This document shows positions 76-35,735 of a stretch of DNA of 37,849 nt, in pieces. The notes beneath the pieces are model-generated. The model was given only the letters and a program-made list of their open reading frames with translations. It made no database searches and was not told the DNA's origin. The position numbers and the translations under genes were made by a program. Origin of the DNA: a virus. The DNA lies in IMG/VR virus record IMGVR_UViG_3300017917_003541, positions 1-37,849 of that record; one strand, given 5' to 3'. Numbering within the stretch: the first letter of the stretch is position 1; every line of letters starts with the position of its first letter.

Positions 76-1833
76 TTACGCTGGGAAAGTTGCTCCAGTA
101 GGTAAGATGTTGAAGTCCAAGTAAATGAATTCAGCTGTCTTAGTTGGTTGTAAATAAATTTGACCTACTAATTGGTTTCTATCAATTACATCAGGAGTGT
201 TATTAGAATCATCCATTACTACTTTGAAAGCATATAAACCTTGACGTTGTTGAACTGACTCTAAGTATGGGTTAACTTGGTTTAAGAAACTAGTACGAGT
301 TGCAATTGTATTTTGTTCGAATACCAAGTTTTGAGCTACTTGAGAAATATAAGATTTAAGAGCAATCAACAAACGACGAACGTTTACACGATCCAAAGCG
401 CTTGATTTAGTTTGTAATGTTTTCTGACCGTAAACTACAACTCCGGTTCCTGGGAAAGTAGCAATTGGGTTAACTTTATTTGTGTATAAAGTGTCTCTTT
501 GAGATTGAGTTAATTTCTTTTCAGCTCTTACTACACTGCTTAATCCACCTCTGTTAATACCTGCAGGTGCGAACCAAGGTTCAGAAACTGAATCGTTGTA
601 AGCATAAACTCCACCTACCATTACTGAAGCAGGAACCCAAACTAATTGAGCAGAATCAGGATCAACTGTTTGAACCCAAGGCCAGTATGAAGCAGCATAT
701 GAACTGTTTTTAGCATTAGAAGCTGTAGTTACATCACTTACACTTGAACTATAAGGTACTAAATCAGGAACATAAATAGCATCACCTCTGTTTGCAGTAT
801 TGCTAATTGCTGTTGTTACTTGAGAAGCACCAATTCTAGCTGTGTTAGCAAACAAACCAGGAGTTAATAATACATTATATCTGTAATCATCAGCGTTAGC
901 TAACAAACTAATCATGTTACTATAATCACTACCTGTTAATCCTTGAGTATTAACTGAAGCAACATCAATGTTGTTGTAATAATCAGCTCCAGCACCAAAT
1001 AAATTACCTGTAGCACCTACAAATGAACCACTTGCGTTAGCAGGTAATGAACCAGTTAATGTAGATTTAGCTAAACCGTTATTATCAAAATAGAATGGAG
1101 TAGGAGTTTTTACACTCGCTACATAAACGTATCTTGAATTATTAGGGAAATCACCAGTTATTTCAATTTGGTTATCTACAGAATTATAAGTTTTAACTTG
1201 GTTACCAATTACTCTAGCTACATAGTTAGGAGCTGTTGGATCCATTGATAAGTTAGTAAAAGATTCTAATACAATAGGATTACTTGTAGTGTCATCACCT
1301 TGACGAATAAATAAACTAAAAGTACCTTGAGAAGTATCTTGGTTAGCAATTTGCCATCTGATGTTATTAGCAGAACCTGAAGCGGCTAATGATCCACCAC
1401 TATCTAATGAACTAGAACTGTTCATAATAGTACCTTGTGAAATAGTATTTAATACTAATGCTTCAGCTAAAGAAGCTGAGTTTAGTATAGATACTCCAGC
1501 TCCAGCACCACCTGTTACAGAACCAGTAGAAGTAGTAGCTGAACTAAATGTTCCACTTACTACTCTTGATACTAATAAAGTTTCTCCACCGTTGTTAAAA
1601 TAGTTAAAAGCGGCGATTGAAGTAAAATAGGTGTAAACTTGACTAGCACTTAAAAAAGTAGTACCAAATTTGCTTTGGTAGTCGCTATATGAAGTAACGA
1701 TTGTAGGAATTTCTACAGGACCTTTTACTGTAGGGCCAATAATTGCGGCTCCAACAGTTACAGGTTGTTGTGTAATAAATGACTGATCGTTTTCTAAAGC
1801 GAGTACGCCAGGTGATATTAATGTTTCTGCCAT
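76..1833 (-). CDS. gp18: Contractile tail sheath protein (gp18-like)
   Basis: This 585-residue protein is the likely subunit of the contractile tail sheath, which shortens around the tube to drive DNA delivery. The N-terminus (MAETLISPGVLALENDQS) is typical of sheath proteins, and the next segment VTVGAAIIGPTVKGPVEIPT matches the usual sheath N-terminal pattern. The C-terminal part, about residues 425-585, has the conserved sheath fold features: GGLSSVVRAEKKLTQSQRDTL, PGTGVVVYGQKT, a VNVRRLLIALKSYI helix, and a final strand ending in EFIYLDFNILPTGATFP. Length is close to T4 gp18 (about 660). The central region, rich in Ser, Thr and Asn, is the surface-exposed insertion seen in this family. 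It lies just upstream of the presumed tube gene, as in T4. Confidence 0.93.
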   Translation of the reverse strand: MAETLISPGVLALENDQSFITQQPVTVGAAIIGPTVKGPVEIPTIVTSYSDYQSKFGTTFLSASQVYTYFTSIAAFNYFNNGGETLLVSRVVSGTFSSATTSTGSVTGGAGAGVSILNSASLAEALVLNTISQGTIMNSSSSLDSGGSLAASGSANNIRWQIANQDTSQGTFSLFIRQGDDTTSNPIVLESFTNLSMDPTAPNYVARVIGNQVKTYNSVDNQIEITGDFPNNSRYVYVASVKTPTPFYFDNNGLAKSTLTGSLPANASGSFVGATGNLFGAGADYYNNIDVASVNTQGLTGSDYSNMISLLANADDYRYNVLLTPGLFANTARIGASQVTTAISNTANRGDAIYVPDLVPYSSSVSDVTTASNAKNSSYAASYWPWVQTVDPDSAQLVWVPASVMVGGVYAYNDSVSEPWFAPAGINRGGLSSVVRAEKKLTQSQRDTLYTNKVNPIATFPGTGVVVYGQKTLQTKSSALDRVNVRRLLIALKSYISQVAQNLVFEQNTIATRTSFLNQVNPYLESVQQRQGLYAFKVVMDDSNNTPDVIDRNQLVGQIYLQPTKTAEFIYLDFNILPTGATFPA

Positions 1834-1857
1834 GTTTGTAAAATTATATTGATTTTA

Positions 1858-1879
1858 TTCTATAATAAATATTATAGAA
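1858..1879 (-). promoter_or_regulatory. Palindromic late-type motif upstream of tail sheath gene
   Basis: Two perfect 10-base arms (1858-1867 and 1870-1879) flank two bases, and the central bases contain the AATATTTAT late-type motif on the coding strand. It sits about 25 nt before the sheath ATG. This copy differs from the others by being fully palindromic. It could be a promoter, a protein-binding site or an mRNA hairpin. Confidence 0.45.
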
Positions 1880-1889
1880 AAGATCAAAA

Positions 1890-2141
1890 TTAATCCAAAA
1901 CAATAAATTCTCCATTATCCATATTGACATTAATTTTGCCATATTTGGATTGGATTTCTTTACTTATTTGGGTTTCTTCATTTTTTAATGATAAAATCCC
2001 TTCAACTAGACTTTCTTTTTGTAATTCTAGTTCTTGAATTTGATATTCAATATAACCCAAATTTATAGTAATTTGGTCTCTTTTAGATTGAATGTTTTTT
2101 AAAGATTGTAATTCTTCTTGAGTTAAAACTTTATTTTCCAT
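1890..2141 (-). CDS. Small coiled-coil protein between fibre and sheath genes
   Basis: This 83-residue protein has no family I recognise. Residues 8-70 are strongly helical, with heptad-like spacing of Leu/Ile and many Glu, Lys and Gln (EELQSLKNIQSKRDQ, then ELELQKESLVEGILSLKNEE), which predicts a coiled coil. The last 15 residues are a short beta-like tail. There is no signal peptide or membrane segment. It starts 12 nt after the stop of the fibre gene, so it is probably co-transcribed. It could be a small structural or chaperone protein for the neighbouring fibre. That role is a guess from position. Confidence 0.75.
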   Translation of the reverse strand: MENKVLTQEELQSLKNIQSKRDQITINLGYIEYQIQELELQKESLVEGILSLKNEETQISKEIQSKYGKINVNMDNGEFIVLD

Positions 2142-2153
2142 ATATTATTTTTA

Positions 2154-3152
2154 TTATTTAACTTGTGTTATTGTTACTATTACTGAAGGTACGCCTACTC
2201 CTCCATTAGAAACTGAGGGGGTTTCGGCTAATAATTGAGCGCTAGCTCCTCCATAAACATACCATATTAATTCTAAATAATCACCAGCATTTAAACTTTC
2301 TACAAAATTCCAAGCAGCTACATACTTACTATTTTGGTTTTGAATAGAAATATTTGTACCACTATAAGTCACATTTGACCCATTTTTTCTAAGCCAAATT
2401 GAAACTTCAGGAGATCCACCAACAGTAGTTACTAATTGAGCTGAAAACTGGAGATTATAAATACCTGTTCTAGTAACTGTTAATCTTGAATTTGATACTA
2501 CTGTAATTCCATCATTAATTACTGGAGTATTTAAAGTAATAGAAGCTGAGTTATTAGCTGTTAAGGTTTGAGTTGATGTATCATAAAAAGTGCCTACACT
2601 TAAATTTGTTACTCCGTTACTCGCATAAGAGGCGGTTAAAGCATAAGAAGCAGTAGTAGCAAAAGACGCGGTTCCATTTACACTACCTGATAATGAACCC
2701 GTAATAGTGTTAAAATTACCTACAGAACCAGATATTGTAAGATTTCCGTTAGCCCCCCCTAATACATTTGTTGATGGATTATAGTAAGGACCATTTGTTC
2801 CATCTGCTGCTAATTGATAAAAATTATCTAAAGCACCTGTTGAATTTTTAAATACTAAAGTATAATTTGTATTTGTTGAAGCATTAGAAGCAACATATAT
2901 TACTGAAGATGAAATAGAATTAGATGAACCAGAAGCATATGAACTACTTAAAGCATAAGAAGCACTTACAGCATTTACTGCATTTTGGAAAAATCCACTA
3001 CCTGTAGTAGCTCCTAAAAATGTAAAGGATCCAGATAATGAAATAGCGTATCCTTCAATACCAGTAAATGCGTCAACACTTTGTGATACATCCGAGGCTT
3101 GAACAATATTGCCGTTTAGGATATTAGATTTAGATAAGGTTTTTAAGGCCAT
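2154..3152 (-). CDS. Fibre/adhesin protein with C-terminal C1q/TNF-like domain
   Basis: This 332-residue virion protein has an N-terminal segment (MALKTLSKSNILNGNIVQ) likely to anchor it to the particle. Next come low-complexity Ser/Ala/Tyr stretches with repeated ASYA motifs (SASYALSSSYASGSS near 63-77 and TASYALTASYAS near 165-176), a pattern common in trimeric phage fibres. The last ~145 residues form a beta-sandwich resembling C1q/TNF or BclA-type heads: alternating strands with TRTGIYNLQFSAQL, VSIWLRKNGSNV, and GDYLELIWYVYG. Such domains trimerise and often bind glycans. The gene follows the TibC-like glycosyltransferase gene by two bases, making it a candidate acceptor. The exact position on the virion is not determined by sequence. 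Confidence 0.75.
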   Translation of the reverse strand: MALKTLSKSNILNGNIVQASDVSQSVDAFTGIEGYAISLSGSFTFLGATTGSGFFQNAVNAVSASYALSSSYASGSSNSISSSVIYVASNASTNTNYTLVFKNSTGALDNFYQLAADGTNGPYYNPSTNVLGGANGNLTISGSVGNFNTITGSLSGSVNGTASFATTASYALTASYASNGVTNLSVGTFYDTSTQTLTANNSASITLNTPVINDGITVVSNSRLTVTRTGIYNLQFSAQLVTTVGGSPEVSIWLRKNGSNVTYSGTNISIQNQNSKYVAAWNFVESLNAGDYLELIWYVYGGASAQLLAETPSVSNGGVGVPSVIVTITQVK

Positions 3153-3154
3153 GT

Positions 3155-4360
3155 TTATTGATAAATATTCAACATTTTATCAATTGCACCGATTACTTGA
3201 ACAGGTTTTATAGTTTTTGTACATTCAAAATGTCTTGGGGTATCTTTATGGTCAGGACACCATTCCCAATCGCCTGGATTTAGCCAATGACGATTAAAAC
3301 ATCCTGTACATGCTTTAGAGTCTAAAGTAAAAATACGTTCACAATCTTTAAATTCAGTATAAGGGTAACTAAAACCTGAAATTAAGATGGTTGGAGTGCC
3401 TATTGACCAACTTAACCAGCTTAATCCACTGCCTACTCCTATAAATAATTCAGCATCTCTAATATCAATCATCCTATCAGATAAATCAATATTATAACCT
3501 GTTTTATTTATTACACCTGTTAATGTACCTCCTAATTTTGAGTCATGCCATTCATCTCCTAAAGGTTCACCTGTTATTATAACTACTTTATAACCTTTTT
3601 CATTTAAATAGTCAATAACAGTTTGCCATCCTTTAGGATGCATCCAATATTTGGCGTGAGAAGAGGCGTGAGGAGCAATTACAACGTATTTATCTTTTAT
3701 GTTTGTTTTTTTACGAGATATAGTAAGTTTAGGTTTTACTTCTTTATATTTTAATCCTAAAATTTCTGTTGGGGTTTGTTGTAATGGATGTTTTTTAAAA
3801 TCAAAAGGTACTTTATCTTTAATAATTTCTTCCCCATCATAAAACCATCCTATATTAAACATAGCATATAAATTATTTACTTCTGTTCCTGGTTTTACAA
3901 ACTCAATTTGTGGGTATTCTTTTTTAAACCATTCGTTATGAAATGTAGAACAAATTACCTCACAATCCCATTTTTTTCTAAATTCTTCAGCATAAGGAAA
4001 CCAAGCTAAAGTATCACCTACTGCCCCTGAATCTAAATGAATGTAAACTCTTTTATTTTTAGGATTAAAAATATGTTCATATACTTTTTCTCCTGATGTA
4101 TTATTGTGTACTTCTATTTTCCAATTAACACAATACTTTATACTAGTGCGAGTCCACATATTGTTACTAATAACACTACTATGAACTATTTCATTAGTTT
4201 TTGTATTTGTAAAAGTAACTTTATACTCTTCTTTTAAAAAACCTACTACTTCTAAAAAAGCACCATCAACAAAATTAACATTAAAAGTATTTGAAGGTTT
4301 TTTGCTTTTTATATTTAAAATTTTAGTATTTTTATATTCTTTAATTAGTAAGTCTTTCAT
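3155..4360 (-). CDS. TibC/AAH-like autotransporter heptosyltransferase homologue (GT9-type)
   Basis: This 401-residue protein matches bacterial autotransporter heptosyltransferases (TibC, AAH), which move heptose from an ADP-heptose donor to serines in beta-helical adhesin repeats. Residues 20-105 form a beta-rich accessory domain. The GT-B catalytic part follows: IHLDSGAVGDTLAWFPYAEE (107-126), a NIGWFYDG segment near 169, HAKYW near 235, and the donor-side GVGSGLSWLSW (308-318). Four cysteines (351, 354, 368, 380) reproduce the metal-binding cluster known from TibC, in the context CTGC, WCPDHK and FECT. Length is the same as TibC. The ATG lies inside the end of the upstream GT4 gene (20-nt overlap), and the downstream fibre gene starts two bases after its stop. 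The enzyme class is well supported. The sugar and acceptor are inferred. Confidence 0.88.
   Translation of the reverse strand: MKDLLIKEYKNTKILNIKSKKPSNTFNVNFVDGAFLEVVGFLKEEYKVTFTNTKTNEIVHSSVISNNMWTRTSIKYCVNWKIEVHNNTSGEKVYEHIFNPKNKRVYIHLDSGAVGDTLAWFPYAEEFRKKWDCEVICSTFHNEWFKKEYPQIEFVKPGTEVNNLYAMFNIGWFYDGEEIIKDKVPFDFKKHPLQQTPTEILGLKYKEVKPKLTISRKKTNIKDKYVVIAPHASSHAKYWMHPKGWQTVIDYLNEKGYKVVIITGEPLGDEWHDSKLGGTLTGVINKTGYNIDLSDRMIDIRDAELFIGVGSGLSWLSWSIGTPTILISGFSYPYTEFKDCERIFTLDSKACTGCFNRHWLNPGDWEWCPDHKDTPRHFECTKTIKPVQVIGAIDKMLNIYQ
3160..3169 (-). promoter_or_regulatory. Late-type motif before the C1q-like fibre gene
   Basis: The coding strand reads GAATATTTATC, seven nt before the ATG at 3152. It overlaps the last codons of the upstream glycosyltransferase gene (Asn-Ile-Tyr-Gln-stop), so it may be partly a coding coincidence. 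Confidence 0.35.
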
Positions 4361-5288
4361 ATAACTGTATTAATTCTTTAGAACGATTTAACCAAGACAA
4401 TTCATCTGCTGTTTTTAAAGCATTTTGTCTGTAAGTACTATATTCATTTATAATCACATTTAATCCTCGTAACATTTCTTTTAAATCACGAGGTGCTCTC
4501 CATAAACCATGAAATGTTGTTTCTTCCTCAATCCAACCTAAAATAGGTAAACCACAAGCCGCTGCCTCTAATAAAGTTAAATTAGGATGACCTGCCTCTA
4601 AATCACTTGGATGTAAAAATATAGTATGAGAATTATATAATTGTCTTAATTGTTCATTTGTAGGTTCACTTATAACATTTAATTTAGGATAACCAAATAC
4701 CCATGGATTATCATTAAACCAATTTTCATTGTTTTTAGGTCCAGCAATAGTAATAGGTAAATTAGAGGCCATAGCTGTTTTTACACCTAATTCAAATCCT
4801 TTTCTATCATATGAACCATAACCACCTAAACCATTATTAGCTAACATTAGTAAACTATGATAAATAGGTGTTGTGTTGTTTGGTTTAAATGTATCTATGT
4901 TTACTCCATGAGAAAAATAATGTACATTTGGTAAATCAAAATAATCAACTAAATAACGAGCTGGTACTAAAGAAAAAATTGATTTTTCCATAGCTTCTCT
5001 GTTTTGTTTATATATAGTGGAATCCTTTCCATAATGATAAGCATGGTGGTCGTGGTGTTGAAACACGTATGATACGTTTTTAGACGCTAATTCTAGCGCT
5101 AAATTTGCTACATGTACCATAACTAAATCATATTCACCCGGTTGGATTTCATTAGCCCATTTTATGTCTACTTCATGACCTAGTTCTTTTAAATTACATG
5201 TAAATTCCCATACAATTTTTTCAATCGCGCCCCATTTTGGTGGTGGAATTGGTATTCCACATCCTGGATTTACTTGGCAAATTCTCAT
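4341..5288 (-). CDS. GT4-like glycosyltransferase
   Basis: This 315-residue, probably cytoplasmic glycosyltransferase has a GT-B fold. The N-terminal domain begins MRICQVNPGCGIPIPPPKWG followed by AIEKIVWEF, the usual GT4 acceptor-side start with a glycine-rich loop. The C-terminal donor domain has GYGSYDRKGFELGVKTA (about 154-170) and HPSDLEAGHPNLTLLEAAAC (226-245), which is the E-x7-E-type nucleotide-sugar signature of GT4 enzymes. At 315 residues it is somewhat shorter than most GT4 proteins, with a compact N-terminal domain. Its ATG overlaps the stop of the 663-residue transferase by four bases (ATGA), a sign of translational coupling. Donor and acceptor cannot be read from the sequence. 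Confidence 0.85.
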   Translation of the reverse strand: MRICQVNPGCGIPIPPPKWGAIEKIVWEFTCNLKELGHEVDIKWANEIQPGEYDLVMVHVANLALELASKNVSYVFQHHDHHAYHYGKDSTIYKQNREAMEKSIFSLVPARYLVDYFDLPNVHYFSHGVNIDTFKPNNTTPIYHSLLMLANNGLGGYGSYDRKGFELGVKTAMASNLPITIAGPKNNENWFNDNPWVFGYPKLNVISEPTNEQLRQLYNSHTIFLHPSDLEAGHPNLTLLEAAACGLPILGWIEEETTFHGLWRAPRDLKEMLRGLNVIINEYSTYRQNALKTADELSWLNRSKELIQLYERLTN

Positions 5289-7276
5289 AATAATGTTAAA
5301 AATCCGTTTTTAGGTAATTGGTTTTCAAAATATTCTTTATTCACTATAATTTTTTTCTCTTCAATTAATTCTTGATTATATCTATCAAAAGCTATATAAT
5401 ATACTTTATAAGTTTTTTCAGGATTAAATGTTACTTGTCTAAACCAAGATAATTTATGAGTTACTTTTACTGTTTCATCAAACAACATTTTATCATCTTC
5501 ATAAACAGCTATTTCAATATCTCTATTATCAGTTGAATTAGCTATATTTAAAAATACAGCAAATTGATCAGGATAATCTTTAACAGCAAGTATTGAAAAA
5601 TATTCTACTCTTGAATAGTTTTTATGTTCAAAATTATTTTCAATCAAATTAACAAATGTTTCTTGATTTTCCCAATATATTTGATTTTTTGATTGTTGGA
5701 AAGTACAGTAGGTTAAGTTTTCTAAACCATTAGACTCACTTTCCCATTCAACCATTAATGAATCATATTCTTGAGCATTCTGAATTTGTGGGAAATGGTT
5801 TAAGTAAAATTTAGGGTCTGTAGCTAAGAAATAAGTTATAATTGTTTCTCCTTCTTGTTCTTCTTTTACCCCAACATATGCTTTTTTCTGGTTTAGGATT
5901 AAAGATATATCATCTATAAAAGTTGGATCTTTTAAAACATAATCATAATTTAAAAAATATACTTTTTTAATACCTAATTTTTCAGCTAAAGCTACTCCAT
6001 TATAATAATTTGTATAAACAGCAGGTCCATGATAAACATTATTATTTTCTCCTGTTAACCATAAATCAGCTTTCCAAGTACCATAATCAAACCAAGTATA
6101 ATTATAAAATGTATGTTTTGTTAAAATATTATTTTTATCATAAACACAATAATCAACTAATTTTTGTAATTCTAAAGGTATAGGTAAATGAGAGGTTAAT
6201 ATAATTTTTCTACCTGTTTGTTTTAAAGCCTCAATACATTCTATAGTAGTTTTTGTTATTGAATTTAATATTGGATAAGTTGATAAAATAAACGCTTCTT
6301 CTTCTATATTTATATAATCATCAGAGTTTAAACTTGACTCAATTAAATTTAAGTTATAACTAAAATCTGTAGTATCTAAGTAATTAACATTATAATCATC
6401 CCAATAATTTAAATACACAGGTAGATTATGAATTAAAATAGGTATTTGATATGAAACGGCCTCCCTAATTACTAAAGGCATTGTTTCTTTATCATTGTTT
6501 GTACCTCTAGAAGTAAATAAGAATAAATCCATTGCTTGATAAAAAGCATCTACATCTGTTCTTTCATTCCACCAAGTTAAATTATCAGGTTTATCATTCA
6601 TTAATGGTTCCCAATAATGTTTAAAATTGTCCGCTTGATTCCCTACACAGTGGAATTCATATTGGGGTAATGCTTTTGCATAAGCAAAAAATTCAGATTG
6701 GTTTTTACGAGGTGTAAATAACCCGATATGTAAAATATGTTTTTTATTAGGATCTAATCCTAATTTTTGTAACGCCTCTGTTCTATCAGGACGTTCAATG
6801 TATTCTATAGGATATTCAACTACTACTTTAGGAATGTCTATATCTTTATATTGATTTACTTGCCATTGAGATACAAACATAAATTTATCAGGAAAAAATT
6901 TCTTTTGAGTCACATCATAAGATGAATCATGAGATGTTTCTACAATTTTATATGTTCTATCCTGAGTATAAATTTGATTTGCAATATCAAAATCCATAAA
7001 GAATTCTGGTATTTCTTCTAAATGAATAATATCAGGTTTTACCTGATTAATAATATTAATAAGTTCTTGTTTGTTGTCTCCTAAAGTAAAAAACTTGTCT
7101 TTATCAACAAGCTTTACAATTTTATTGCGAGTAACTACTAATACACCTCCAGTACAATCTGACCATTCAACTAAATAAATCTCAAAATCATTTTTGAGTA
7201 ATTCTATTTTTTTAGTTAGATATTGAGGCAGCCCCCCTGTTGATAAATGGGGGGCTACATATAGCAGTTTTTCCAT
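5285..7276 (-). CDS. Multidomain GT4-type glycosyltransferase with extra C-terminal domains
   Basis: This is a 663-residue protein. Residues 1-345 are a GT4-like GT-B enzyme: YVAPHLSTGGLPQYL at the start, HIGLFTPRKNQSEFFAYAKA near 183, and a donor-site region FLFTSRGTNNDKETMPLVI followed by REAVSYQIPILI. Residues about 350-560 look like a second domain, beginning KIILTSHLPIPLELQKLVDY and containing VYFLNYDYVL, which could be a GT-A-like or accessory fold. I do not recognise it firmly. The last ~100 residues form a beta-sandwich (FAVFLNIANSTDNRDIEIAVY). It sits between the sulfotransferase (3-nt gap) and the smaller GT4 gene (4-nt overlap). A bifunctional polymer- or glycan-building enzyme is plausible. 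The sugar specificity is unknown. Confidence 0.82.
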   Translation of the reverse strand: MEKLLYVAPHLSTGGLPQYLTKKIELLKNDFEIYLVEWSDCTGGVLVVTRNKIVKLVDKDKFFTLGDNKQELINIINQVKPDIIHLEEIPEFFMDFDIANQIYTQDRTYKIVETSHDSSYDVTQKKFFPDKFMFVSQWQVNQYKDIDIPKVVVEYPIEYIERPDRTEALQKLGLDPNKKHILHIGLFTPRKNQSEFFAYAKALPQYEFHCVGNQADNFKHYWEPLMNDKPDNLTWWNERTDVDAFYQAMDLFLFTSRGTNNDKETMPLVIREAVSYQIPILIHNLPVYLNYWDDYNVNYLDTTDFSYNLNLIESSLNSDDYINIEEEAFILSTYPILNSITKTTIECIEALKQTGRKIILTSHLPIPLELQKLVDYCVYDKNNILTKHTFYNYTWFDYGTWKADLWLTGENNNVYHGPAVYTNYYNGVALAEKLGIKKVYFLNYDYVLKDPTFIDDISLILNQKKAYVGVKEEQEGETIITYFLATDPKFYLNHFPQIQNAQEYDSLMVEWESESNGLENLTYCTFQQSKNQIYWENQETFVNLIENNFEHKNYSRVEYFSILAVKDYPDQFAVFLNIANSTDNRDIEIAVYEDDKMLFDETVKVTHKLSWFRQVTFNPEKTYKVYYIAFDRYNQELIEEKKIIVNKEYFENQLPKNGFLTLL

Positions 7277-7279
7277 AAA

Positions 7280-8098
7280 TTACTTTTTGTAGTTAAACTG
7301 TTCGTAAAACCATTTGTAATTGTTATAGATCCAATCTGTAACATCTCTACCTAATAAAGTCTTAGCTTTAGAAGGCATAGGTTCTAGTTTTGTTCTAATA
7401 ACATGATCTCCAAACACACCGTAAACAGTATCATCTTCTTTAGTTACTTGTTCAATATTATCAAAGTCATGACTGTAGTAAGGAATGTCTAAATAATTAT
7501 AAATTTTAGTCATTTCCCTATCTGGGTATAGACAAAGATCTTCAAACTTAACAAATAAAATTTTACTGTTAATTCCCATCCTAATAATTTCTCCTAATCT
7601 TTCAATAGCCATTCCTACTGGAGGATTTTGAGCCCAAACATCTACACGTTTAGGAACTGTTGTACCTTGCATTGTAGACCAATCTAAGATTGGAGATGTT
7701 TTATCTGAACTTTTACGGTAATTGTTTTCCATAGAGGCAAAAATATCTCTTAAGTCCCTAATCATACAAATGATTTTAGGTTCTGGATAAATTTGGTTTA
7801 AGAAATCATAATGGATTCCCCATCCTCTACTTTTATCAATTACATAAGGTTTATCAGTAATTGCTTCATAATAACCTTTCATTCCTTCTTTACAAAAAGC
7901 CATAAATCCTGTCTTCATTAGATCAGGATCTTGTGCTTGGAATTCAGGAGAATTAGTATAATTACCTCTAGCGGCAAATATTAATTCAAGTACTCCAGAA
8001 GTAGGAGTAGCATAAATATTTGGGTTTTGTGCTAAGATGTTTTGTAACAAAGTACTACCTGCTCTAGGCAAGGAAGATTGAAAAAACAATTTTTCCAT
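7280..8098 (-). CDS. PAPS-dependent sulfotransferase family protein
   Basis: This 272-residue protein would transfer sulfate from PAPS to an acceptor, most likely a glycan given its neighbours. The 5'-phosphosulfate loop is at the N-terminus (SSLPRAGSTLLQNIL, 8-22). The 3'-phosphate site is visible as IRDLRDIFASMENNYRKS (113-130), with the Arg and Ser spaced as in the family. VIDKSRGWG (86-94) is the usual segment between them, and ILFVKFEDLCLYPD further on is the typical late motif. Length fits a single-domain soluble sulfotransferase, and no membrane anchor is seen. It lies between a GT9-like gene and the large GT4 gene with gaps of three nt, so it belongs to the glycan cassette. Confidence 0.88.
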   Translation of the reverse strand: MEKLFFQSSLPRAGSTLLQNILAQNPNIYATPTSGVLELIFAARGNYTNSPEFQAQDPDLMKTGFMAFCKEGMKGYYEAITDKPYVIDKSRGWGIHYDFLNQIYPEPKIICMIRDLRDIFASMENNYRKSSDKTSPILDWSTMQGTTVPKRVDVWAQNPPVGMAIERLGEIIRMGINSKILFVKFEDLCLYPDREMTKIYNYLDIPYYSHDFDNIEQVTKEDDTVYGVFGDHVIRTKLEPMPSKAKTLLGRDVTDWIYNNYKWFYEQFNYKK

Positions 8099-8101
8099 AA
8101 C

Positions 8102-8977
8102 TTATTTTTGGTTTTTAATAGACTCAATAATTTGATCTACATTAAAGATTTCATCCTCATTATTATAAGGGAACTCTAACAAATCACCAGCAATATTAAA
8201 TTGTTGTAAGTATGAGTTTCTTAATTCAGGTTTAACTGTAAAAGGATTAGATACAATATTGTCATGCATACTATAACCAAATACTTCTGGCTTATTAGCA
8301 ATCCAACATACTGTTGAAGGCATATTCATAGCTGCTGCTGTATGTTGAGCAAAACTATCAATAAATAATCTTTTATTACTTAAAGAATTTAATACACATA
8401 AAGCTCTAAAAGTATCAGTTACTGGATAAGTGTAATCAAATCCAATTTGGTCTTCTCTTTTAATATGGATAATATTATAATCTTTTCTAAAAGCATCAAT
8501 TACTTTAATAGCTACAGATGATGGAATATCTCTTGCCCAAGAATACTTATGTTCTGTTTGACTACCACCATTTGTTTGTAACAACAAAATAGGCAAATCT
8601 GATTGGAAACGGTTTTCAAAGAATTTAATTTCTCGAGCTGTTAAATGAATTTTAGGCAACTCACCATTATATTCAACTCCAAACATTTCACACCAAGTTT
8701 TAATTAAGTGTTCGTTTTGTTTTAAGTGATTTGTTTCTAAATAAGGATCATGAGCAAACAACAATACATCTTTATCTTTTACAAACTCATCATAAAAATA
8801 ACTAAACCCACTAAAATTGTAAGTACGGTAAACATTAGGGTTATTTAAAAATACATCAGCATATCCTGATACTACAATCAGATTTGCTTTAGGGTATTGT
8901 TTGTGAATTGCTTCACAAACAGCTGTGGCCATGATGCATTTACCAATACCACCATTAATTTGAAAGATTATATTCAT
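8102..8977 (-). CDS. GT9-like (heptosyltransferase family) glycosyltransferase
   Basis: This 291-residue protein has the start of a GT9 enzyme: MNIIFQINGGIGKCIMATAV, equivalent to the glycine-rich acceptor loop of ADP-heptose:LPS heptosyltransferases. Later segments ILLLQTNGGSQ (about 155-165) and LFIDSFAQHTAAAMNMPSTV (about 203-222) correspond to the family's donor-domain strands and the D/S-x-x-x-H-x-A-A region. At 291 residues it is shorter than LPS heptosyltransferases (about 320-350). It is the first gene of the glycan cassette, and a second GT9-type gene (the TibC-like one) ends the cassette. The sugar it uses is not determined. Confidence 0.78.
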   Translation of the reverse strand: MNIIFQINGGIGKCIMATAVCEAIHKQYPKANLIVVSGYADVFLNNPNVYRTYNFSGFSYFYDEFVKDKDVLLFAHDPYLETNHLKQNEHLIKTWCEMFGVEYNGELPKIHLTAREIKFFENRFQSDLPILLLQTNGGSQTEHKYSWARDIPSSVAIKVIDAFRKDYNIIHIKREDQIGFDYTYPVTDTFRALCVLNSLSNKRLFIDSFAQHTAAAMNMPSTVCWIANKPEVFGYSMHDNIVSNPFTVKPELRNSYLQQFNIAGDLLEFPYNNEDEIFNVDQIIESIKNQK

Positions 8978-9387: not shown

Positions 9388-10068
9388 TTAATTAACTATT
9401 ACATCAAAATACAAACCTGTAAATCCACCGTAAGAGGCAACATCTTCAGTTCCATAAACAGTAGAATCAAAAGTAGCACCTCCAGGACCCGCAGGAACTG
9501 TACCTCCAGTAACTTTAGTACTTCCATTTATAACAATATTAGTTGTACCTCCAGCAAAAGTAGGGTTAGCTCCAGAAACTGTTACTTTCCAATATCCTCT
9601 AAAAATAATAGGATTGGTTGTCATGCTTACAGCACTAGGTCCGTAAGTACCAGGGGCCATTGCCATACCACCACCATTTAAGTATTGATAAGAAAATGAA
9701 GAATCCCATAACTCAACATTTACGTTAACAGCATTATCTACTGGAGGAGGTGGAAATGGTGGGGGATTTGTTTTATTATTTGTTACATTTAAAGTTACCT
9801 GAAATGTAGAATTATCATAAAAATAAGTTAATCCTGAATAGTCTCCTATTTCATAATCTGATGTTTTGGCTGCTAGTCCATAAATTCTGTTTGCTCCTGA
9901 TCCTTCATGTACTCCCCAGTTATTGTCTGTTAGGGAATTTGATCCATTAGGACCAGCAAAATATGAGAAAAAACTCATAGTAAGTAAACTCAGTTGTCCC
10001 GAACTATAAGGAGAATTAGCTTCACTCCATATAGCAGACATACTAATATCAGAGGTAGGCAAAGTCAT
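9388..10068 (-). CDS. Gly-rich fibre-associated structural protein
   Basis: This 226-residue protein begins TLPTSDISMSAIWSE, resembling the N-terminal ISMSxI motif seen in many phage tail and fibre proteins. A proline hinge, PPPFPPPP (102-109), separates this part from a beta-rich C-terminal half full of Gly, Asn and Thr (GGTTNIVINGSTKVTGGT). No enzyme motif is visible. Its ATG shares one base with the stop of the giant fibre gene, indicating translational coupling and suggesting a partner or tip protein for that fibre. An alternative is an independent baseplate or tail protein. Confidence 0.72.
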   Translation of the reverse strand: MTLPTSDISMSAIWSEANSPYSSGQLSLLTMSFFSYFAGPNGSNSLTDNNWGVHEGSGANRIYGLAAKTSDYEIGDYSGLTYFYDNSTFQVTLNVTNNKTNPPPFPPPPVDNAVNVNVELWDSSFSYQYLNGGGMAMAPGTYGPSAVSMTTNPIIFRGYWKVTVSGANPTFAGGTTNIVINGSTKVTGGTVPAGPGGATFDSTVYGTEDVASYGGFTGLYFDVIVN

Positions 10069-13000
10069 TACTTGTTAATTTGTTTTTTTAACTCGTTTAA
10101 TTCTGTTGAAAGTTCTTTTATAGCCTCAATTAATAAAGCTGTTATTTTATCGTATTTAACCGCCTTATACCCATTGTCCCTAGTTACTACTAACTCGGGT
10201 GCAATTTTTTCAATTTCTTGAGCCATTACACCTATATCGTGTCCTTCATTTTCATGTATACCAGGCATTGGTATCCAATCAAATCCGTAACCACTAATTT
10301 GGTTAAGTTTTTCTAGTGAACCTGTTAACGGTTGTTTATTATTTTTTAATCTTTCGTCGGAAGAATAGAAAGCAATAACATCAGATGTTGCTCTAATTGT
10401 ACCACAAGCTTGTAAGTTGTTTACATAAGTGTAACAAGCAACTGTTGCTGTTAAGTTAGATCCTATTATAAATGAGTCAGAAGCACCACTACAAACTAAA
10501 TTGCTTTTTCCACCTAAAATTCCTGAGTATACAGAAGATACTGTGTTGCTTTTACCTCCACCTATAAATGAACAAAAACCTGAGACTGTGTTGCTTTGAC
10601 CACTACCTATAAATGAGCGACATCCTGAAACTGTGTTATTTGTACCACCAACAATAGCACCAGCATAAGCAGATACTGTGTTAACAGTTCCACCAGCAAT
10701 TGTTGCTTCTTGGGCTGAGATTGTGTTTTGATATCCTCCAGATATTGTGCTCCAACAATTTGATACTGTATGATTATATCCACCACCAATAAATGATGAT
10801 GCTCCTGTTGCTGCGTTAGTATATCCTCCAGAAACAGTTGAATAACTATTTGTAGCACAGTTTAATCTACCCCCGCCTACTGTTGAATAAACACCAGAGG
10901 TTGTGTTAGCACATCCTCCGCCTATAAATGAGCAGTTGCCTGAGGCTGTGTTGCCTAACCCACCACCAATTGTTGATAAAGTACCAGAGGCTGTGTTGCT
11001 TTTACCCCCTGATACTGTTGCTTGAGCAGCAGATGCTACATTTGAATATCCTGATACTGTTGATGTTGTTGAACCTGCTGTAATACTATTATTATATCCA
11101 CCAGGGATTGTTGCTAAGTAACCGCAGTTTACATTCTCGGCTCCACCACCTACTGTTCCAAAATCACAATATGCCTTACTACTTCTTCCTCCTGCTGCAG
11201 TTGAATATTCTCCGGAGGCTGTGTTATTCGCACCACCACCTACAAATGAGTGACCTCCTGAGGCGGTATTTACTCTACCACCACCAACAAATGAACAAGC
11301 ACCTGAAGCTGTATTAGCTATACCACCACCTAAAAATGCTCTACCTCCTGAAACTGTGTTTCCCTCACCTCCAACTAATGAAGCTCTAAGACCACTATTA
11401 GTATTGTTATATCCACCTGTTACAACAGCATCATAACTTGATGCTGTATTGAGTGCTCCTCCTCCAACAAAGGCACCAGCACATATAGCACAGTTGTTTT
11501 GACCACCTACTACAATAGCGTTTACTCTGTTGCCTCCAACACCACCAACTATGTTGGTATTTCCGCCTCCTATAAAACCATAATTAGCACAAACTTTGTT
11601 ATTATATCCACCACTTGCTGTAGAGTAAGCATTTGTAGTGCAGTTAGCTTGACCTCCACCTACTGTTGAACAAGCGCCTGAGGATATGTTGTTTCTACCT
11701 CCAGATACAACTGATGTATTACCACTTGCTGTGTTTATACATCCCCCACCAATAACAGCCATATATCCAGTACCACTATTGTTATATCCACCAGATACTG
11801 TTCCATAAGCTCCTCCTGCTCTGTTGTTTACACCACCAGATATTGTATCGCCTGTATTAGTAGCACAGTTATATGATCCTCCACCTATACTACCAAGTAC
11901 TCCAGATGATAAGTTAACATATCCACCTCCTACAAAAGAACAACAACCTGAAGCTGTGTTAATATATCCTCCACCTATAAATGAGTTAGTTCCTGAAGCT
12001 GTATTGGCTAAACCACCACCTACTCTGGAAGCACTACCACTAGCTGTATTAGTACATCCTCCTCCTATAGAAGCATGGTTAGAAGTAGCAGAGTTATTTT
12101 CACCACCAGATATTACGGAAGCATATGCTGCAGATGCTGTATTACCATATCCTCCTCCTATTGCGTTACCATAACAAGTAACGTTGTTTCCACAACCACC
12201 TGCTATAGTACCTGCTCTTCCAGGAACTGTGTTTCCACATCCACCACCTATTGTTGAATAAAGATTTGAAGCAACGTTTGATTGACCACCATTTACTACT
12301 GATCTATATCCAGAGGCTGTGTTTGATATACCACCACCTATAAACGAACCGTCATTTGATGATATATTAGATCGTCCTCCACTTAAGGTTGAATCTGTAC
12401 CAGAGGCTGTATTACATCTACCACCACCAATGAAAGCTAACCCAGCAGAAGCTGTATTATTTTCACCACCGGCAATTGTAGACATATAAGTACCACTTGC
12501 TGTGTTTCCTACTCCACCACCTATTGCCGCGTAGAATGTACTAGAGGCTGTATTACAAATACCTCCAGCAACTGTAGCCATACAACCTGTGGCTCTGTTA
12601 CAAACTCCACCACCTACTGTTGATCCAACTCCTAAAGCACAGTTTCTAAGTCCACCACCAATTGTTGATACTTGGCCTGCATTGTAGCAACATGTTGGGT
12701 TACTGCAAACATAACCATCAACACACCAATCACCACCTGCTGTGTTGTTAAATACACCTCCTCCGATAGTCGCACCTGCGGCACAAGCAGTTGCTACTGT
12801 TGAGCGTATCACATTAAATATACCACCACCAATTGTAGCATCACTAGATACGTTTTTGTTTAAGTATCCTCCGGAAATTGTTGAAGCATAACCAGCACAA
12901 ATAATATTACCATATCCACCACCAACAGCACCAGCGTATCCTGAAACTGTGTTGCTTCTACCTCCACTAATAGTTGATGCTTGACTTGAAACTGTATTAG

Positions 13001-16000
13001 ATCCACCACCACCTACTGTTGTGAATCCAGCAGAGGATGTATTAGCGCAACCACCGCCTACTGTTGATAAATAAGCAGAAGATGTATTATTCTTACCACC
13101 ATTGATAATGGAAAAATAATTACCAGAAGCTGTATTACTTGCTCCTCCTCCTATAAATCCATATCTACTAGTGTTTACATTTCCAGCACCACCGGTTGTT
13201 GTTCCAAATTCTTGGGTAGCACAGTTACATCTACCACCACCTACAATTGAACAAGCACCTGAGGCTAAGTTAGTATCTCCACCAGCTACTGTTGATATAG
13301 CCCCTGATGATATATTGAATAAACCTCCGGCTACTACAGAGTCAATACCTTGTGCTCTGTTTTGAAAACCACCTCCTATAAAAGAAAACTTACCAGCTAC
13401 ATAAAAAGTGGTTGGAGAAACAGTAAAATACCCTCCATCATTCCATGTTCCTCCAGATGAGTTGTTTCCAACACCACCGGCTATAGTTGCTCCCGCGGTA
13501 CAAGTACTATTTAAAACATCACATATTCTGTTACAACTACCTCCACCTATTGTTCCTGCGTTTGAATAGTTGTTATTACCATATCCACCACTTATTGTTG
13601 AGGCGTAAGCTGTAGCATTATTTGAAATACCACCCGCGATAGTTGAATATTGGGCAGATGCTGTGTTTCCTGTACCTCCTCCTACTGTTGATCTATTAAA
13701 GGAAGCAACGTTAGACGAACCACCACCCACTGTTGAACAGTTACCTGAGGATGTGTTACTTATACCACCACCTATAAATGAGTGGCAACCTGAGGCTGTG
13801 TTTGAAGTACCACCACCTATAAATGCTCTAGCAGCTGTAGAACTGTTATTAATACCTCCTACAACAGCCGCTTGAGCGCCATTAACATAGTTTTGGTAAC
13901 CACCTGAAATTGTTGAGTCACTAGAACATATAAGATTTTTAAACCCACCACCAATAATACTAGCGCTACCTGCTAAAACTCGGTTACATCCTCCACCTAC
14001 AACAACAGATAAACCAGAAACTGTTGTATTACAAAATCCACCTATTGTAGAAGAACAATATCCTGATACTGTGTTGCATCTACCACTACCTACAAATGAA
14101 GCAGTGCCTGAAGCTGTATTACTACCACCACCGGTAGCAACTGAACAGTTACCTGAGGCTGTGTTAAGACATCCACCACCTGCAAATGATGTTCTACCTG
14201 TAGATGTAACACTATATCCTCCAGATAATGTACTAACATCTCCTGAGGCTGTGTTACCAAGCCCACCACCTATTGTTGAATAATTAGATCCAACAGAACT
14301 ATTACCTTGACCTCCACCTACTACAGCTCCAACAGTTGAGGCTGTGTTATCATTACCACCACTAATAGTTGACCAAGCTCCAGAAGTTACATGACTTTCA
14401 CCACCGCCTATTGTTGAGCAAGCACCTGAGGCTATATTACTTATACCACCACCTAAAAATGAACTATTACCAGAGGCCGTATTATAACCTCCACTCATAG
14501 TTCCTGATGCGTTACCAGAGGCTATATTATTTCTACCTCCTAAAATAGCGGAAAAATACCCACATGCTGTGTTAGCGTAACCTGCACCTATTGTTATATA
14601 ATATCCACCACTAACTGTATTAGCTGCTCCTCCTAAAATAGAGTTTACTAAACTAGAGGCTGTGTTAGTATTACCACCAGCAATTGTGTTAAGATAACCT
14701 CCACAAATAAAGTTACTTACACCACCACCTATTGTGTTGTAACAAGTTCCACACGCTCTGTTTGTATCACCACCGGCAACTACAGACCATCTACTTATTG
14801 CTTGGTTTTTATTACCACCACCAATAGTTGTAAATTCACCAATTGATATATTTCCACACCCACCACCTATAACAGATGATGAACAATATATACAGTTACC
14901 TGTACCCCCGCCTATAAATGAATAGGCTCCACTATATATTCTACTACAATAACCTCCACTAATAGTTGAATAATCACCTATAACACAGTTATATTGACCA
15001 CCACTAATTGTACTAAATTGATTTCGGGCTTGGTTTCCACCTCCACCACCTACAAAGGTACCGGCAGCACAAGCTAAATTAACTCTACCACCAACTACAA
15101 TTGCTGAATCTGCAGAAGCTATATTACTATATCCACTACCAATAAATGATAAATAACCACTTGCTGTGTTAGTATCTCCTCCAACCACAGATGAATTGTT
15201 ACCTGAAGCTGTACTAGTTTTACCACCACTTACTGTTGAAAAAGCACCTGAGGCTGTGTTAGCATATCCACCACCAATTGTTGAACAACCACCTGAGGCT
15301 AAATTTCCACAACCTCCATTTATAGTTGACATATTAGAGGTAGCACAGTTTTGATATCCTCCAGAAACAGTAGAAGTAAAACCACAAGCGCGGTTTTGAT
15401 AACCACCACCTACAGTTGAAAAACATCCTAAAGCTTGTCCTGCATATCCTCCACTAACAGTACCATAAGGTCCATTAGCGTATCCATTTAAACCACCTGC
15501 TACTACAGATGTATAACCAGAGGCTGTTGAGTTTCTACCACTAGCTACAGACCATCCTCCACTAGCGACTGTATTACATCCTCCACCTACAAATGAAAAA
15601 CCACCTGAGGCTGTGTTTCCACAACCACCACCAATTGTTGAGCAAGCTCCTGAGGCTGTGTTAGTATGCCCACCACTTATTGTTGATCGTGTTCCGGAAG
15701 CTGTATTGACTTGGCCTCCACTTATTGATGAACCATAAGTACCACTTGCTGTATTGTTAGTACCCCCACCTATAAAAGCAAAAGCACCTATTGATTTATT
15801 ATTATATCCTCCAGAAACTGTTGAATAGGTAGTTGTAGCACAGTTTGCTATACCACCCCCTACAGCGGAGTATGTGCCTGAGGCTGTATTAACTTTACCA
15901 CCTGCTACTACAGAACAAGCACCAGAAGCTGTATTACTTATGCCTCCTGCTAAAGAGTTTTGAGCAAAGCAAAAATACATTAAATTAGTACTTTGTACTA

Positions 16001-19000
16001 ATAATGAACTTGAAGCATAAACCGCATATCCTGGTTGATAATTGAATGTTGTACCACTTATACCTGCTGTACCGTTAATAGATACACCTGAAGATCCTGC
16101 TGAACCTGAAGTACCACTTGTACCTGATGGAGCTGAGAAACCAGCAGCACCCGCTATACCTGAAGTACCTGAAGTACCTGAAGTACCTGCTGTATTTGAG
16201 GCACCTGATGTACCTGCCGCACCTGTAGTTCCGTTTGATCCTGCTGAACCTGCAGAACCTGAAGTATTAGATGAACCACTTGTACCTGCTGCTCCTGTTG
16301 TACCACTTGATCCGTTTGAACCTGAAGTGCCACTTGTTTGACTTGAACCTGAAGTACCTGCTGCTCCTGTTGTTCCGTTAGAACCACTAGAACCTGAAGT
16401 ACCTGATGTATTTGATATACCACTTGCTCCTGCTAGTCCTGAGGTACCTGTAGTACCTGAAGAACCCGCAGAACCACTTGATCCACTTGTGTTTGAAGCA
16501 CCTGATGTACCTGCTGCTCCTGTTGTTCCGTTAGAACCAGCAGAACCACTTGAACCTGAAGTGTTTGAAGCACCTGATGTACCTGCGGCGCCTGTTGTTC
16601 CGTTTGATCCTGAACTACCTGAAGTTCCTGAAGTTGCTGAAACACCTGAACCTCCGTCTACACCTGAAGTTCCTGTAGAACCAGATGAACCTGAAGAACC
16701 AGATGAACCACTTGTTTGACTTGAACCTGAAGTACCTATAGCTCCTGTAGTACCATTTGAACCCGATGATCCTGATGAACCACTTGTTTGACTAGCACCT
16801 GAAGTACCAGCTGCACCTGTAGTACCTTGTGAACCACTAGATCCACTAGAACCACTTGAATTACTTGCACCTGAAGTACCTGCTGCTCCACCTGTTCCAT
16901 TAGAACCTGCTGAACCTGAAGTACCAGAGGTTGCACTTTGGGCTGAGAAACCAGCTGCACCTGCTATACCTGAAGTTCCTGAAGAACCACTTGTACCTGA
17001 TGTATTACTTGATCCTGAAGTTCCAGCTGCACCTGTTGTTCCATTTGAACCAGATGAACCACTAGAACCACTTGAATTAGAAGCTCCTGAAGTACCAGCT
17101 GCTCCTGTTGTTCCATTAGAACCAGCTGAGCCACTTGAACCACTTGTATTAGAGGCACCTGAAGTACCTGCATCTCCAGTAGTACCTTGTGATCCTGCTG
17201 AACCACTAGTACCTGAAGTGTTTGAATTGCCTGATGTACCAGCAGCACCAGTAGTTCCATTAGAACCACTTGAACCACTTGTACCTGAAGTATTTGAGAT
17301 ACCACTTGCACCTGCTAAACCTGAGGTACCTGTTGTACCTGAGGAACCAGCTGTACCAGAAGTACCTGAAGTATTGCTTGAACCTGAAGTTCCAGCATCA
17401 CCTGTTGTACCTTGTGATCCTGCTGAACCACTTGTACCTGAAGTGTTTGAGTTACCTGAAGTACCAGCGTTACCTGTTGTACCTTGAGAACCACTTGATC
17501 CACTAGAACCACTTGTTTGACTAGCTCCAGAAGTACCAGCAGCTCCTGTGCTACCATTTGAACCACTTGATCCTGAAGTACCTGAAGTAGCTGAAACACC
17601 TGAACCTCCGTCTACACCTGAAGTACCAGTTGAACCTGAAGAACCACTAGAACCTGAGGTACCAGAAGTACCTGCGTTGCCTGATGTTCCTGAAGAACCT
17701 GAAGCTCCTGAAGTACCACTTGTTTGTGATAAACCACTAGTACCTGTTGAACCACTTGATCCACTTGTACCTGAAGTACTTGATTGACCTGAGTTACCTG
17801 CGTTTCCTGTAGTACCATTAGAACCACTAGAACCACTTGTACCAGAAGTATTAGAAGCACCTGATGTACCTGCATCACCTGTTGTACCAAATGAACCTGC
17901 AGAACCTGATGAACCACTTGTATTAGATGATCCAGATGTACCAGCGTCTCCTGTAGTACCTTGAGAACCACTAGAACCACTTGAACCACTTGTTTGACTT
18001 AATCCTGAGGTACCAGCAGCACCTGTACTACCTTGAGAACCAGAACTACCTGATGAACCACTTGTTTGGCTTAAACCTGAAGTACCAGCTGCTCCTCCTG
18101 TCCCATTAGAACCTGAAGAACCGCTTGTACCTGAGGTAGCACTTTGAGCAGAAAAACCAGCTGCACCTGCTATACCTGATGTACCTGAACTACCACTAGT
18201 TCCTGAAGTGTTTGAAGTACCGCTTGTACCATCAACACCTGAAGTACCAGATGAACCTGTTGAACCTGAAGAACCTGAAGTACCAGCAGTAGCTGCTGTA
18301 CCTGAAGCGCCTGATGTTCCTGAAGTACCATTAGTACCACTTGTTTGGCTTAAACCACTTGTACCTGTAGTACCTGAACTACCTGAAGTACCTGATGTAG
18401 AACTTTGTCCACTATTACCTGCATTACCGGTTGTTCCATTTGAACCACCTGATCCTGAGGTACCAGATGTATTTGAATTACCAGAAGTACCAGCGTCACC
18501 TGTTGTACCAAATGAACCTGCAGAGCCAGAAGAACCACTTGTTCCACTAGTTCCTGAAGTACCATCTGCTCCACTTGAACCTGAAGAACCAGTAGAACCA
18601 CTTAAACCTGAAGTACCAGATGAACCTGTAGTACCACTAGTTTGGCTTAAACCTGAAGTACCTGTTGTACCTGAAGAACCAGAAGTTCCTGAGGTACCTG
18701 ATTGACCTGAGTTTCCATCATTACCATTTGTACCTGAAGTTCCTGAAGAACCTGTTGATCCACTTGAACCTGAAGATCCACTTGAACCGGATACTCCATT
18801 AAAACCATTTAGACCTGAAGTACCAGATGAACCTGTACTACCTGAAGTGCCTGATGTATTAGATTGGCCTGAGTTTCCAGCGTTACCATTTGAACCTGAA
18901 CTACCACTTGAACCTGAAGTTCCACTTGTATCCGCTGTTCCTGAAGAACCAGCTGAACCTGAAGTACCTGTTGTACCACTTGTTTGACTTAATCCTGAGG

Positions 19001-35061: not shown

Positions 35062-35469
35062 TTATAGTGCTAAAGCTAAAATTAAAGCAATAGTACTAAA
35101 TATAACAGAAGCATAAGCGCCTCTTATTCTACTTTCTAAATCAGTAATTTTTTTATTTTTTTCTTCAATAATACCGTCTTTAGCTTTAACAACTCCTTTG
35201 TAGTCTTCAACTTTTTTATTTAATATTACACGAGTAGAATCACAAACATTAATAATACTATCTTGTCTTAAAATAATAGTATCCATATGTTTAATAGAAT
35301 CACGAGTAAGACTTAATTCTAATTTAAGGTTATCTCTATCAGCTTTAACTAAAAGAGCATTTCTCAATGCTTTAACAGGAACGATTACTGAATCATTCGA
35401 AAGCTTTTGAGAACTCGCTGATGACATCATCATCAGACATATCATGAAGGCGATTACGTTCTTTATCAT
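35062..35469 (-). CDS. Small membrane/coiled-coil protein, possible spanin component
   Basis: The start is set at the ATG at 35469 (MIKNVIAFMICLMMMSSASS), giving 135 residues. An upstream in-frame start adds eleven charged residues before the same signal. The N-terminus is a signal-peptide-like segment ending near SSASSQ. Residues ~30-110 form a coiled coil (DNLKLELSLTRDSIKH, KDGIIEEKNKKITDLESRIR). The last 18 residues (YASVIFSTIALILALAL) are a membrane segment. It overlaps the preceding small gene by 77 nt in another frame, as in nested spanin pairs. There is no clear lipobox cysteine, so it is not a standard o-spanin. A holin-associated or structural role is also possible. Confidence 0.68.
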   Translation of the reverse strand: MIKNVIAFMICLMMMSSASSQKLSNDSVIVPVKALRNALLVKADRDNLKLELSLTRDSIKHMDTIILRQDSIINVCDSTRVILNKKVEDYKGVVKAKDGIIEEKNKKITDLESRIRGAYASVIFSTIALILALAL

Positions 35470-35734
35470 ATTTTTTTCTATATTGTTCAGCTTTTTTAGC
35501 AAGTTCTGCTAATTTAGCTTTATCGGAAATGAGTAATGAATCTAAAATTCCTCTTGTTGAGTCTAAAGAGGCAATTTTTACATCTTTTTTTTCAATTTCA
35601 AGAACTAAAGAATCAACTGTTTTTTTATATTGTTCTTCTTTAATTGAAGAGTAACTTTGTTTATAAACAAATAACTGGTAGGCGATTAAACCTACCAGTC
35701 CTATCACAACTATTGTTAATAGTGTTTTTTTCAT
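35393..35734 (-). CDS. Rz-like inner-membrane coiled-coil protein (candidate i-spanin)
   Basis: The start is taken at the ATG at 35734, one base after the upstream stop, in preference to a TTG three codons earlier. The protein has 113 residues: an N-terminal membrane anchor (TLLTIVVIGLVGLIAYQLF, 4-22), then about 80 residues of charged coiled coil (VDSLVLEIEKKDVKIASLD, KAEQYRKKYDKERNRLHD). This is the usual layout of Rz-like inner-membrane spanins, which fuse inner and outer membranes at lysis. Its 3' end overlaps the next gene in a different frame. Assignment is by architecture only. Confidence 0.7.
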   Translation of the reverse strand: MKKTLLTIVVIGLVGLIAYQLFVYKQSYSSIKEEQYKKTVDSLVLEIEKKDVKIASLDSTRGILDSLLISDKAKLAELAKKAEQYRKKYDKERNRLHDMSDDDVISEFSKAFE

Positions 35735-35735
35735 A

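Follow-up and report, generated by a model that had tools for sequence, protein, structure and literature searches.

The TibC/AAH-type O-heptosyltransferases (BAHTs) are familiar from the adhesins of Gram-negative bacteria, and the glycosyltransferases carried by phages are commonly interpreted as acting on DNA or on lipopolysaccharide (LPS). BAHTs modify serine or threonine residues in the cytoplasm, on substrates that are partly folded (PMC8151025). Collagen-like proteins built from Gly-X-Y repeats can also be glycosylated, as described for BclA of Bacillus spores and BclA1 of C. difficile, and glycosylation of the BclA type is thought to better the hydration network that stabilizes such proteins (PMC8968730). 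Among phages, the virion proteins of mycobacteriophages are glycosylated at the C-termini of capsid and tail-tube proteins (Freeman 2023, cited in PMC12619734). Within the open-access literature searched, we found no phage example of a BAHT, in agreement with the initial annotation of the locus described here, and no published link of heptosyltransferases to collagen-like proteins or to phages.

A TibC/AAH-type enzyme in a T4-like phage

The stretch of DNA analyzed (hereafter the window; 37,849 nt) is a 37.8-kb IMG/VR virus fragment whose gene order is of the T4 type. A gp23 capsid protein and a tail sheath are both encoded within it and, together with its origin in a virus record, they bear out the initial assignment of the gene to a phage. 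The nearest isolated relatives are the Flavobacterium phages 'immuto' (58% identity for the terminase and 55% for the sheath), in which no match to the window's BAHT was found. Because these phages are the closest relatives, and because two BAHTs of the same clade come from contigs that have this phage gene order and were binned to Winogradskyella and Flavobacteriales, the host is likely to belong to the Bacteroidota. A pair of overlapping small ORFs at 35062-35743 of the window is membrane-anchored in appearance.

The BAHT gene occupies positions 3155-4360, as initially annotated, on the minus strand, which had been left unstated, and encodes a protein of 401 aa. Its product matches the TIGR04414 profile at 302.9 bits (E 2.9e-90; cut-off 200), with residues 25-395 aligned to positions 11-373 of 374 and thus spanning nearly the full length of the profile. 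TibC (4rap; E 4.8e-54) is its sole sequence relative in the PDB, with the four cysteines in register, whereas models for LPS heptosyltransferases score far below their cut-offs (46.1 versus 467 bits for WaaC, 27.8 versus 170 for WaaQ and 23.4 versus 185 for heptosyltransferase III). The AlphaFold (AF2) model of the protein (pLDDT 89.1) contains the N-terminal beta-barrel and GT-B-like core of the TibC fold, and every one of its 21 best Foldseek matches is a TibC chain (TM about 0.8, compared with about 0.4-0.5 for GT9/WaaC structures). An ordinary LPS heptosyltransferase is ruled out by the low profile scores together with the fold match to TibC. The class proposed initially, that of the autotransporter heptosyltransferases, is therefore sustained by the profile, with the metal site retained, by the PDB relative and by the structural comparison, and the motifs from which it had been recognized, GDTLAWFPY (residues 115-123), GSGLSWLSW (310-318) and Cys351/354/368/380, are all present in the ORF. 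Judged by its conserved partner (see below), the window BAHT is a member of the TIGR04414 enzyme family that falls outside the autotransporter-modifying subgroup.

Functional residues were mapped from the TibC structure paper (PMC4358343). The catalytic base of TibC, D110, corresponds to Asp116 in the phage enzyme. Three of the four donor-site residues are identical (K230, R286 and W305 of TibC equate to Lys237, Arg296 and Trp315), and the fourth, T226, is conservatively replaced by Ser233. Cys351/354/368/380 align with the metal cysteines of TibC as a four-Cys iron finger, and in a diverse set of 19 phage BAHTs none of these cysteines varies, nor does Asp116 or Lys237. The position that determines donor stereochemistry (Pro300 in TibC, Ser294 in AAH) is a glycine in the phage BAHT and in nearly all of the enzymes associated with Gly-Thr-Ser (GTS) repeats. 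The thumb region carries an insertion as long as or longer than that of TibC, with a tip that aligns to Lys/Leu. In TibC, this tip is formed by the hydrophobic residues F265/V266, which close the dodecamer; because these ring-closing residues are not conserved, a TibC-like ring may be absent from the phage enzyme. The thumb is long in the phage clade to which the window belongs, other GTS-type enzymes (L083, L084, L100 and L116) have a shorter thumb or none, and the equivalent of TibC Arg286 has been lost in the Methylobacter clade.

A conserved cassette and its fibre genes

In the order of transcription, the fibre part of the window comprises a giant fibre gene (19595-10068), two small genes, and the genes for a GT9-like protein, a sulfotransferase, GT4b, GT4a, the BAHT, a small fibre protein, one short product and the tail sheath. 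The BAHT closes a coupled run of sugar-modifying genes that did not appear in the initial annotation, all of them on the minus strand. The GT9-like protein (8102-8977; 291 aa; PHROG 8954, E 4.4e-8) is a possible further glycosyltransferase, which had no match in a Pfam search and whose class is assigned on sequence appearance alone. It is followed by the sulfotransferase (7280-8098; 272 aa; Pfam PF13469, E 1.3e-18; PHROG 27463), putatively involved in glycan decoration, and by GT4b (5285-7276; 663 aa), in which a GT4 domain (Pfam PF00534, E 1.1e-11) precedes a C-terminal GT-A-like region and a beta-sandwich; the AF2 model of the protein matches GT4 structures, and a fold search with its C-terminal half returned weak glycogenin-like matches at best. 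GT4a, a GT4-type glycosyltransferase (4341-5288; 315 aa; Pfam PF13524, over cut-off), is conserved directly before the BAHT. GT4b and GT4a overlap by 4 nt, and the end of GT4a overlaps the start of the BAHT gene by 20 nt. The tail sheath protein (76-1833, minus strand; PHROG 23, E 6.8e-77; Pfam Phage_sheath_1) provides a syntenic marker downstream of the cassette.

Relatives of the BAHT are encoded on at least 231 viral contigs. The trio GT4b-GT4a-BAHT is a constant unit in about 80 viral loci, mostly directly before the tail sheath, and in a second group of loci it sits behind the capsid gene in the company of a carbamoyltransferase. FkbM methyltransferase genes are frequently inserted in related cassettes; the sulfotransferase, among the loci compared, occurs only in the window phage and its near-copy L002. 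In Microcystis phage Mel-JY01, a single ORF fuses GT4, an FkbM-type methyltransferase and the BAHT, and directly follows a GTSGSSG collagen ORF. In the corresponding record (PP395634.1; L082:2-8430), the fusion is annotated merely as 'methyltransferase FkbM', the collagen ORF is open at the record start and overlaid by a gene call on the opposite strand, and a prolyl 4-hydroxylase is annotated at 146571-147170.

The giant fibre (10068-19595, minus strand; Pfam Collagen, E 1.5e-101; Peptidase_S74, E 1.4e-13) is indeed the 3175-residue repeat protein initially described, and its composition and periodicity reveal three successive parts. Residues 55-1172 form a Ser/Thr-rich, nearly Pro-free Gly-X-Y collagen-like region (33% Ser, 30% Gly, 17.5% Thr, one Pro, no Lys), residues from about 1173 to 3060 consist of 15-residue beta-roll-like repeats that are likewise Ser/Thr-rich, and residues 3079-3136 represent a Peptidase_S74 chaperone domain. 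The beta-roll-like part, which extends for about 1900 residues between the shaft and Peptidase_S74, is of the IGGGxxNTASG type and contains about 4% cysteine. A beta-helical target, as for TibC and AAH, had been envisaged for the enzyme; this expectation was not borne out, as a search of the giant fibre for TIGR04415 strand-loop-strand repeats gave no match (E<=0.1) and the conserved partner is a Ser/Thr-rich Gly-X-Y protein.

A fibre gene described as C1q-like had also been placed two bases past the BAHT. Its position is correct (2154-3152, minus strand; 332 aa), but the C1q-like label finds no support from Pfam (E<=0.1) or from a PDB sequence search, neither of which yields a match. Nor is the proposed link conserved, because this fibre-like protein is a variable neighbor, present in a minority of the about 80 syntenic loci. 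A role as dedicated substrate is ruled out by this variability.

Association with Gly-Thr-Ser collagen-like proteins

In 18 of 19 BAHT-bearing phage records the Pfam Collagen profile finds matches; no match was obtained in one huge BAHT phage (LR756504.1). Among 31 loci that were sampled by their BAHT and extend 8 kb or more upstream of the sheath, 29 have Gly-X-Y runs in that upstream part. When contigs were instead chosen by their sheath, again with at least 8 kb upstream required, GTS repeats accompanied the trio in 10/12 cases, versus 4/41 contigs lacking the trio (Fisher p 2.8e-6). This association is clustered on the sheath tree, where about 2 concordant independent pairs are found, which is not significant; within phages alone, the association lacks phylogenetic independence. 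Two of the 12 trio loci have no GTS repeats in view, one of which contains a GPT-type collagen. A divergent clade of phage BAHTs (6 loci) has Pro-rich collagen nearby or none in view. Independent support is lent by Mel-JY01, with its fused gene behind a GTS collagen ORF, and by a 735-kb phage with a BAHT at 40% identity, which encodes two giant GTS proteins, both distant from the BAHT gene.

Other collagen-like fibres were observed in the company of different enzymes. Pro-rich examples in related T4-like contigs (L121:5077-7435, L227:2942-5269, L293:1461-4899 and L306:1538-4516) adjoin genes for 2OG-Fe(II) oxygenase-like, GT25, GT2 or FkbM proteins, by which phage collagens are perhaps hydroxylated and glycosylated. 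Where a fibre with GLSGISG collagen-like repeats lacks a BAHT (L165:1528-9682), the proteins encoded beside it, one GT9 and one GT2+GT4, could possibly be a replacement glycosylation set.

The clearest test came from bacteria: of 311 genomes from the order that includes Methylobacter luteus (Methylococcales), 16 contain a BAHT over the TIGR04414 cut-off. The scores of these enzymes fall into two sharply distinct sets, one classical (about 650-660 bits) and one in the phage range (about 303-327 bits). A small (GTS)n or GTA/GTT protein, mostly with an evident signal peptide, is adjacent to 8/9 of the phage-like BAHTs versus 0/8 of the classical ones (p 4e-4), and GTS-type repeats occur in 0/108 ORFs at 28 GT9 control loci. 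A strict GTS DNA motif, blind to proteins that mix GTA with GTS and to a genome lacking a GTS neighbor (3/9 genomes), is nonetheless present in 6/9 of the low-scoring genomes versus 5/302 others (p 3e-8). At three or more of the eight classical loci there are giant repeat autotransporters of 2350-2670 residues, and the one that was tested is a TIGR04415 strand-loop-strand protein with 22 repeats.

The BAHT-GTS pairing recurs in metagenome-assembled genomes assigned to Polaromonas, Arenicellales, Acidiferrobacterales and another gammaproteobacterium, with lipoprotein-like leaders on several of the GTS proteins. A class-wide search of 369 genomes revealed 2 true BAHTs, the remaining matches being weak GT9 proteins that were reused as controls. 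In an enzyme tree, a quick build whose deep branches are weak, the classical enzymes group together in a single long-branched clade, the enzymes of the phage trio form another, and the GTS-associated bacterial BAHTs are distributed over several clades, all outside the classical set.

Proposed role and relation to known systems

Because the phage and bacterial relatives of the enzyme adjoin Gly-Thr-Ser collagen-like proteins, the phage probably coats its own giant fibre with sugar. The initial proposal of fibre glycosylation by the phage itself thereby gains support from genomic evidence, namely the conserved cassette and the Gly-X-Y partner in phages and bacteria. We favor, with some confidence, a scheme in which the BAHT starts probable heptose O-glycans on the collagen-like shaft, to be extended and decorated by the neighboring enzymes. 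We infer heptose as the sugar and the collagen region as the acceptor: the GT-B enzyme would move heptose from host ADP-heptose to Ser/Thr residues of the GTS/GSS Gly-X-Y shaft, in the host cytoplasm late in infection. As BAHTs act in the cytoplasm, where phage assembly also takes place, no export would be needed. In the presumed order of steps, GT4a and GT4b, from the same coupled gene run, would lengthen the first sugar and the sulfotransferase would decorate the glycan, relatives using an FkbM methyltransferase or carbamoyltransferase. Given that the shaft is nearly proline-free, the purpose of a dense sugar coat may be to stabilize or stiffen it; shielding from proteases or variation of the virion surface may also be served. 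Sugar-based stabilization of proline-free repeats is plausible. We entertain more tentatively the idea that the enzymes of this clade and their (GTS)n collagen-like partners constitute a widespread mobile glycosylation pair, common to phages and free-living bacteria, in which dense O-heptosylation might play for a proline-free rod the part of hydroxyproline in animal collagen.

The description of the system as self-contained does not hold, in that no ADP-heptose genes were seen in the window and nearly all related records lack them. On these grounds the host would supply the donor. A phage-encoded pathway was rejected, as gmhA was not found in 18/19 BAHT phage records and rfaE domain II gave sub-threshold matches only. 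Most bacterial genomes with a BAHT contain GmhA-like genes, though under the strict cut-off, and a 636-kb phage whose BAHT is divergent (L185:6084-6653; LR756504.1, 430 kb) encodes, about 27 kb from that BAHT, a GmhA over the curated cut-off. That the protein target is unchanged and the donor is a nucleotide sugar other than ADP-heptose seems to us rather unlikely. The glycine at the TibC Pro300/AAH Ser294 position in nearly all GTS-type enzymes, the missing Arg286 in the Methylobacter clade and the near absence of heptose genes from phage records would fit such a donor, yet Asp110, Lys230, Arg286 and Trp305 are retained in the window's phage clade, and the GmhA-like genes of BAHT bacteria and the gmhA of the one huge phage speak for heptose.

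The acceptor might alternatively lie elsewhere in the fibre or in a different virion protein, such as the beta-roll repeats, the tail sheath or the capsid, with the GTS link incidental. The location of the cassette, which in most loci immediately precedes the tail sheath and in another group comes behind the capsid gene, is compatible with this, as are the Ser/Thr-rich beta-roll repeats, whose repetitive beta-strands resemble known BAHT targets. In bacteria, however, the neighbors of phage-like BAHTs are (GTS)n proteins in which sheath, capsid and beta-roll are all absent, and the tail sheath occurs both with and without a BAHT, and we regard such an acceptor as unlikely. It is still more improbable that the cassette alters LPS or capsule on the host surface and thereby blocks superinfection. 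GT9 includes the LPS heptosyltransferases, and phage glycosyltransferases adjacent to tail fibres have been interpreted as host-surface modifiers (PMC7029224), but the protein-modifying TIGR04414 model is well over its cut-off where the LPS models are far under theirs, and a protein partner is conserved in phages and bacteria.

If glycosylation of the collagen-like shaft is correct, a large separate branch of BAHTs acts on Gly-Thr-Ser collagen-like repeats in environmental bacteria and in T4-like phages of a common group, probably infecting Bacteroidota. Phages would gain a means of glycosylating their own fibres, adding a protein-modifying role for phage glycosyltransferases, and Methylobacter would offer a simple two-gene system for sugar stabilization of a proline-free collagen-like protein. 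We found no earlier report, in the open-access literature, of a collagen-like fibre as target of the BAHT family.

The enzymes that glycosylate BclA and BclA1 are not known to include BAHTs and are ascribed to other families. Gram-positive collagen-like repeats typically contain proline (PMC8968730), whereas those of the phage fibre are Ser/Thr-rich and Pro-free. Mycobacteriophage virion proteins likewise bear sugars, with neither a BAHT nor a collagen-like fibre described in the corresponding passage of PMC12619734. WaaC, WaaF and WaaQ (GT9) have the GT9/GT-B C-terminal lobe in common with the phage BAHT but differ in their scores, far under cut-off, and in their Foldseek TM of about 0.4-0.5. 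The closest described system remains that of TibC and AAH (TIGR04414; PDB 4RAP, 4RB4), with which the phage enzyme shares the full-length profile, the fold, the catalytic Asp, the Lys/Arg/Trp donor residues and the four-Cys finger. Unlike these enzymes, the phage BAHT lies apart from the long-branch classical clade, has a glycine at the stereoselectivity position and different thumb-tip residues, is phage-borne and accompanied by two GT4 partners, and is paired with a Gly-X-Y collagen-like protein rather than a strand-loop-strand autotransporter.
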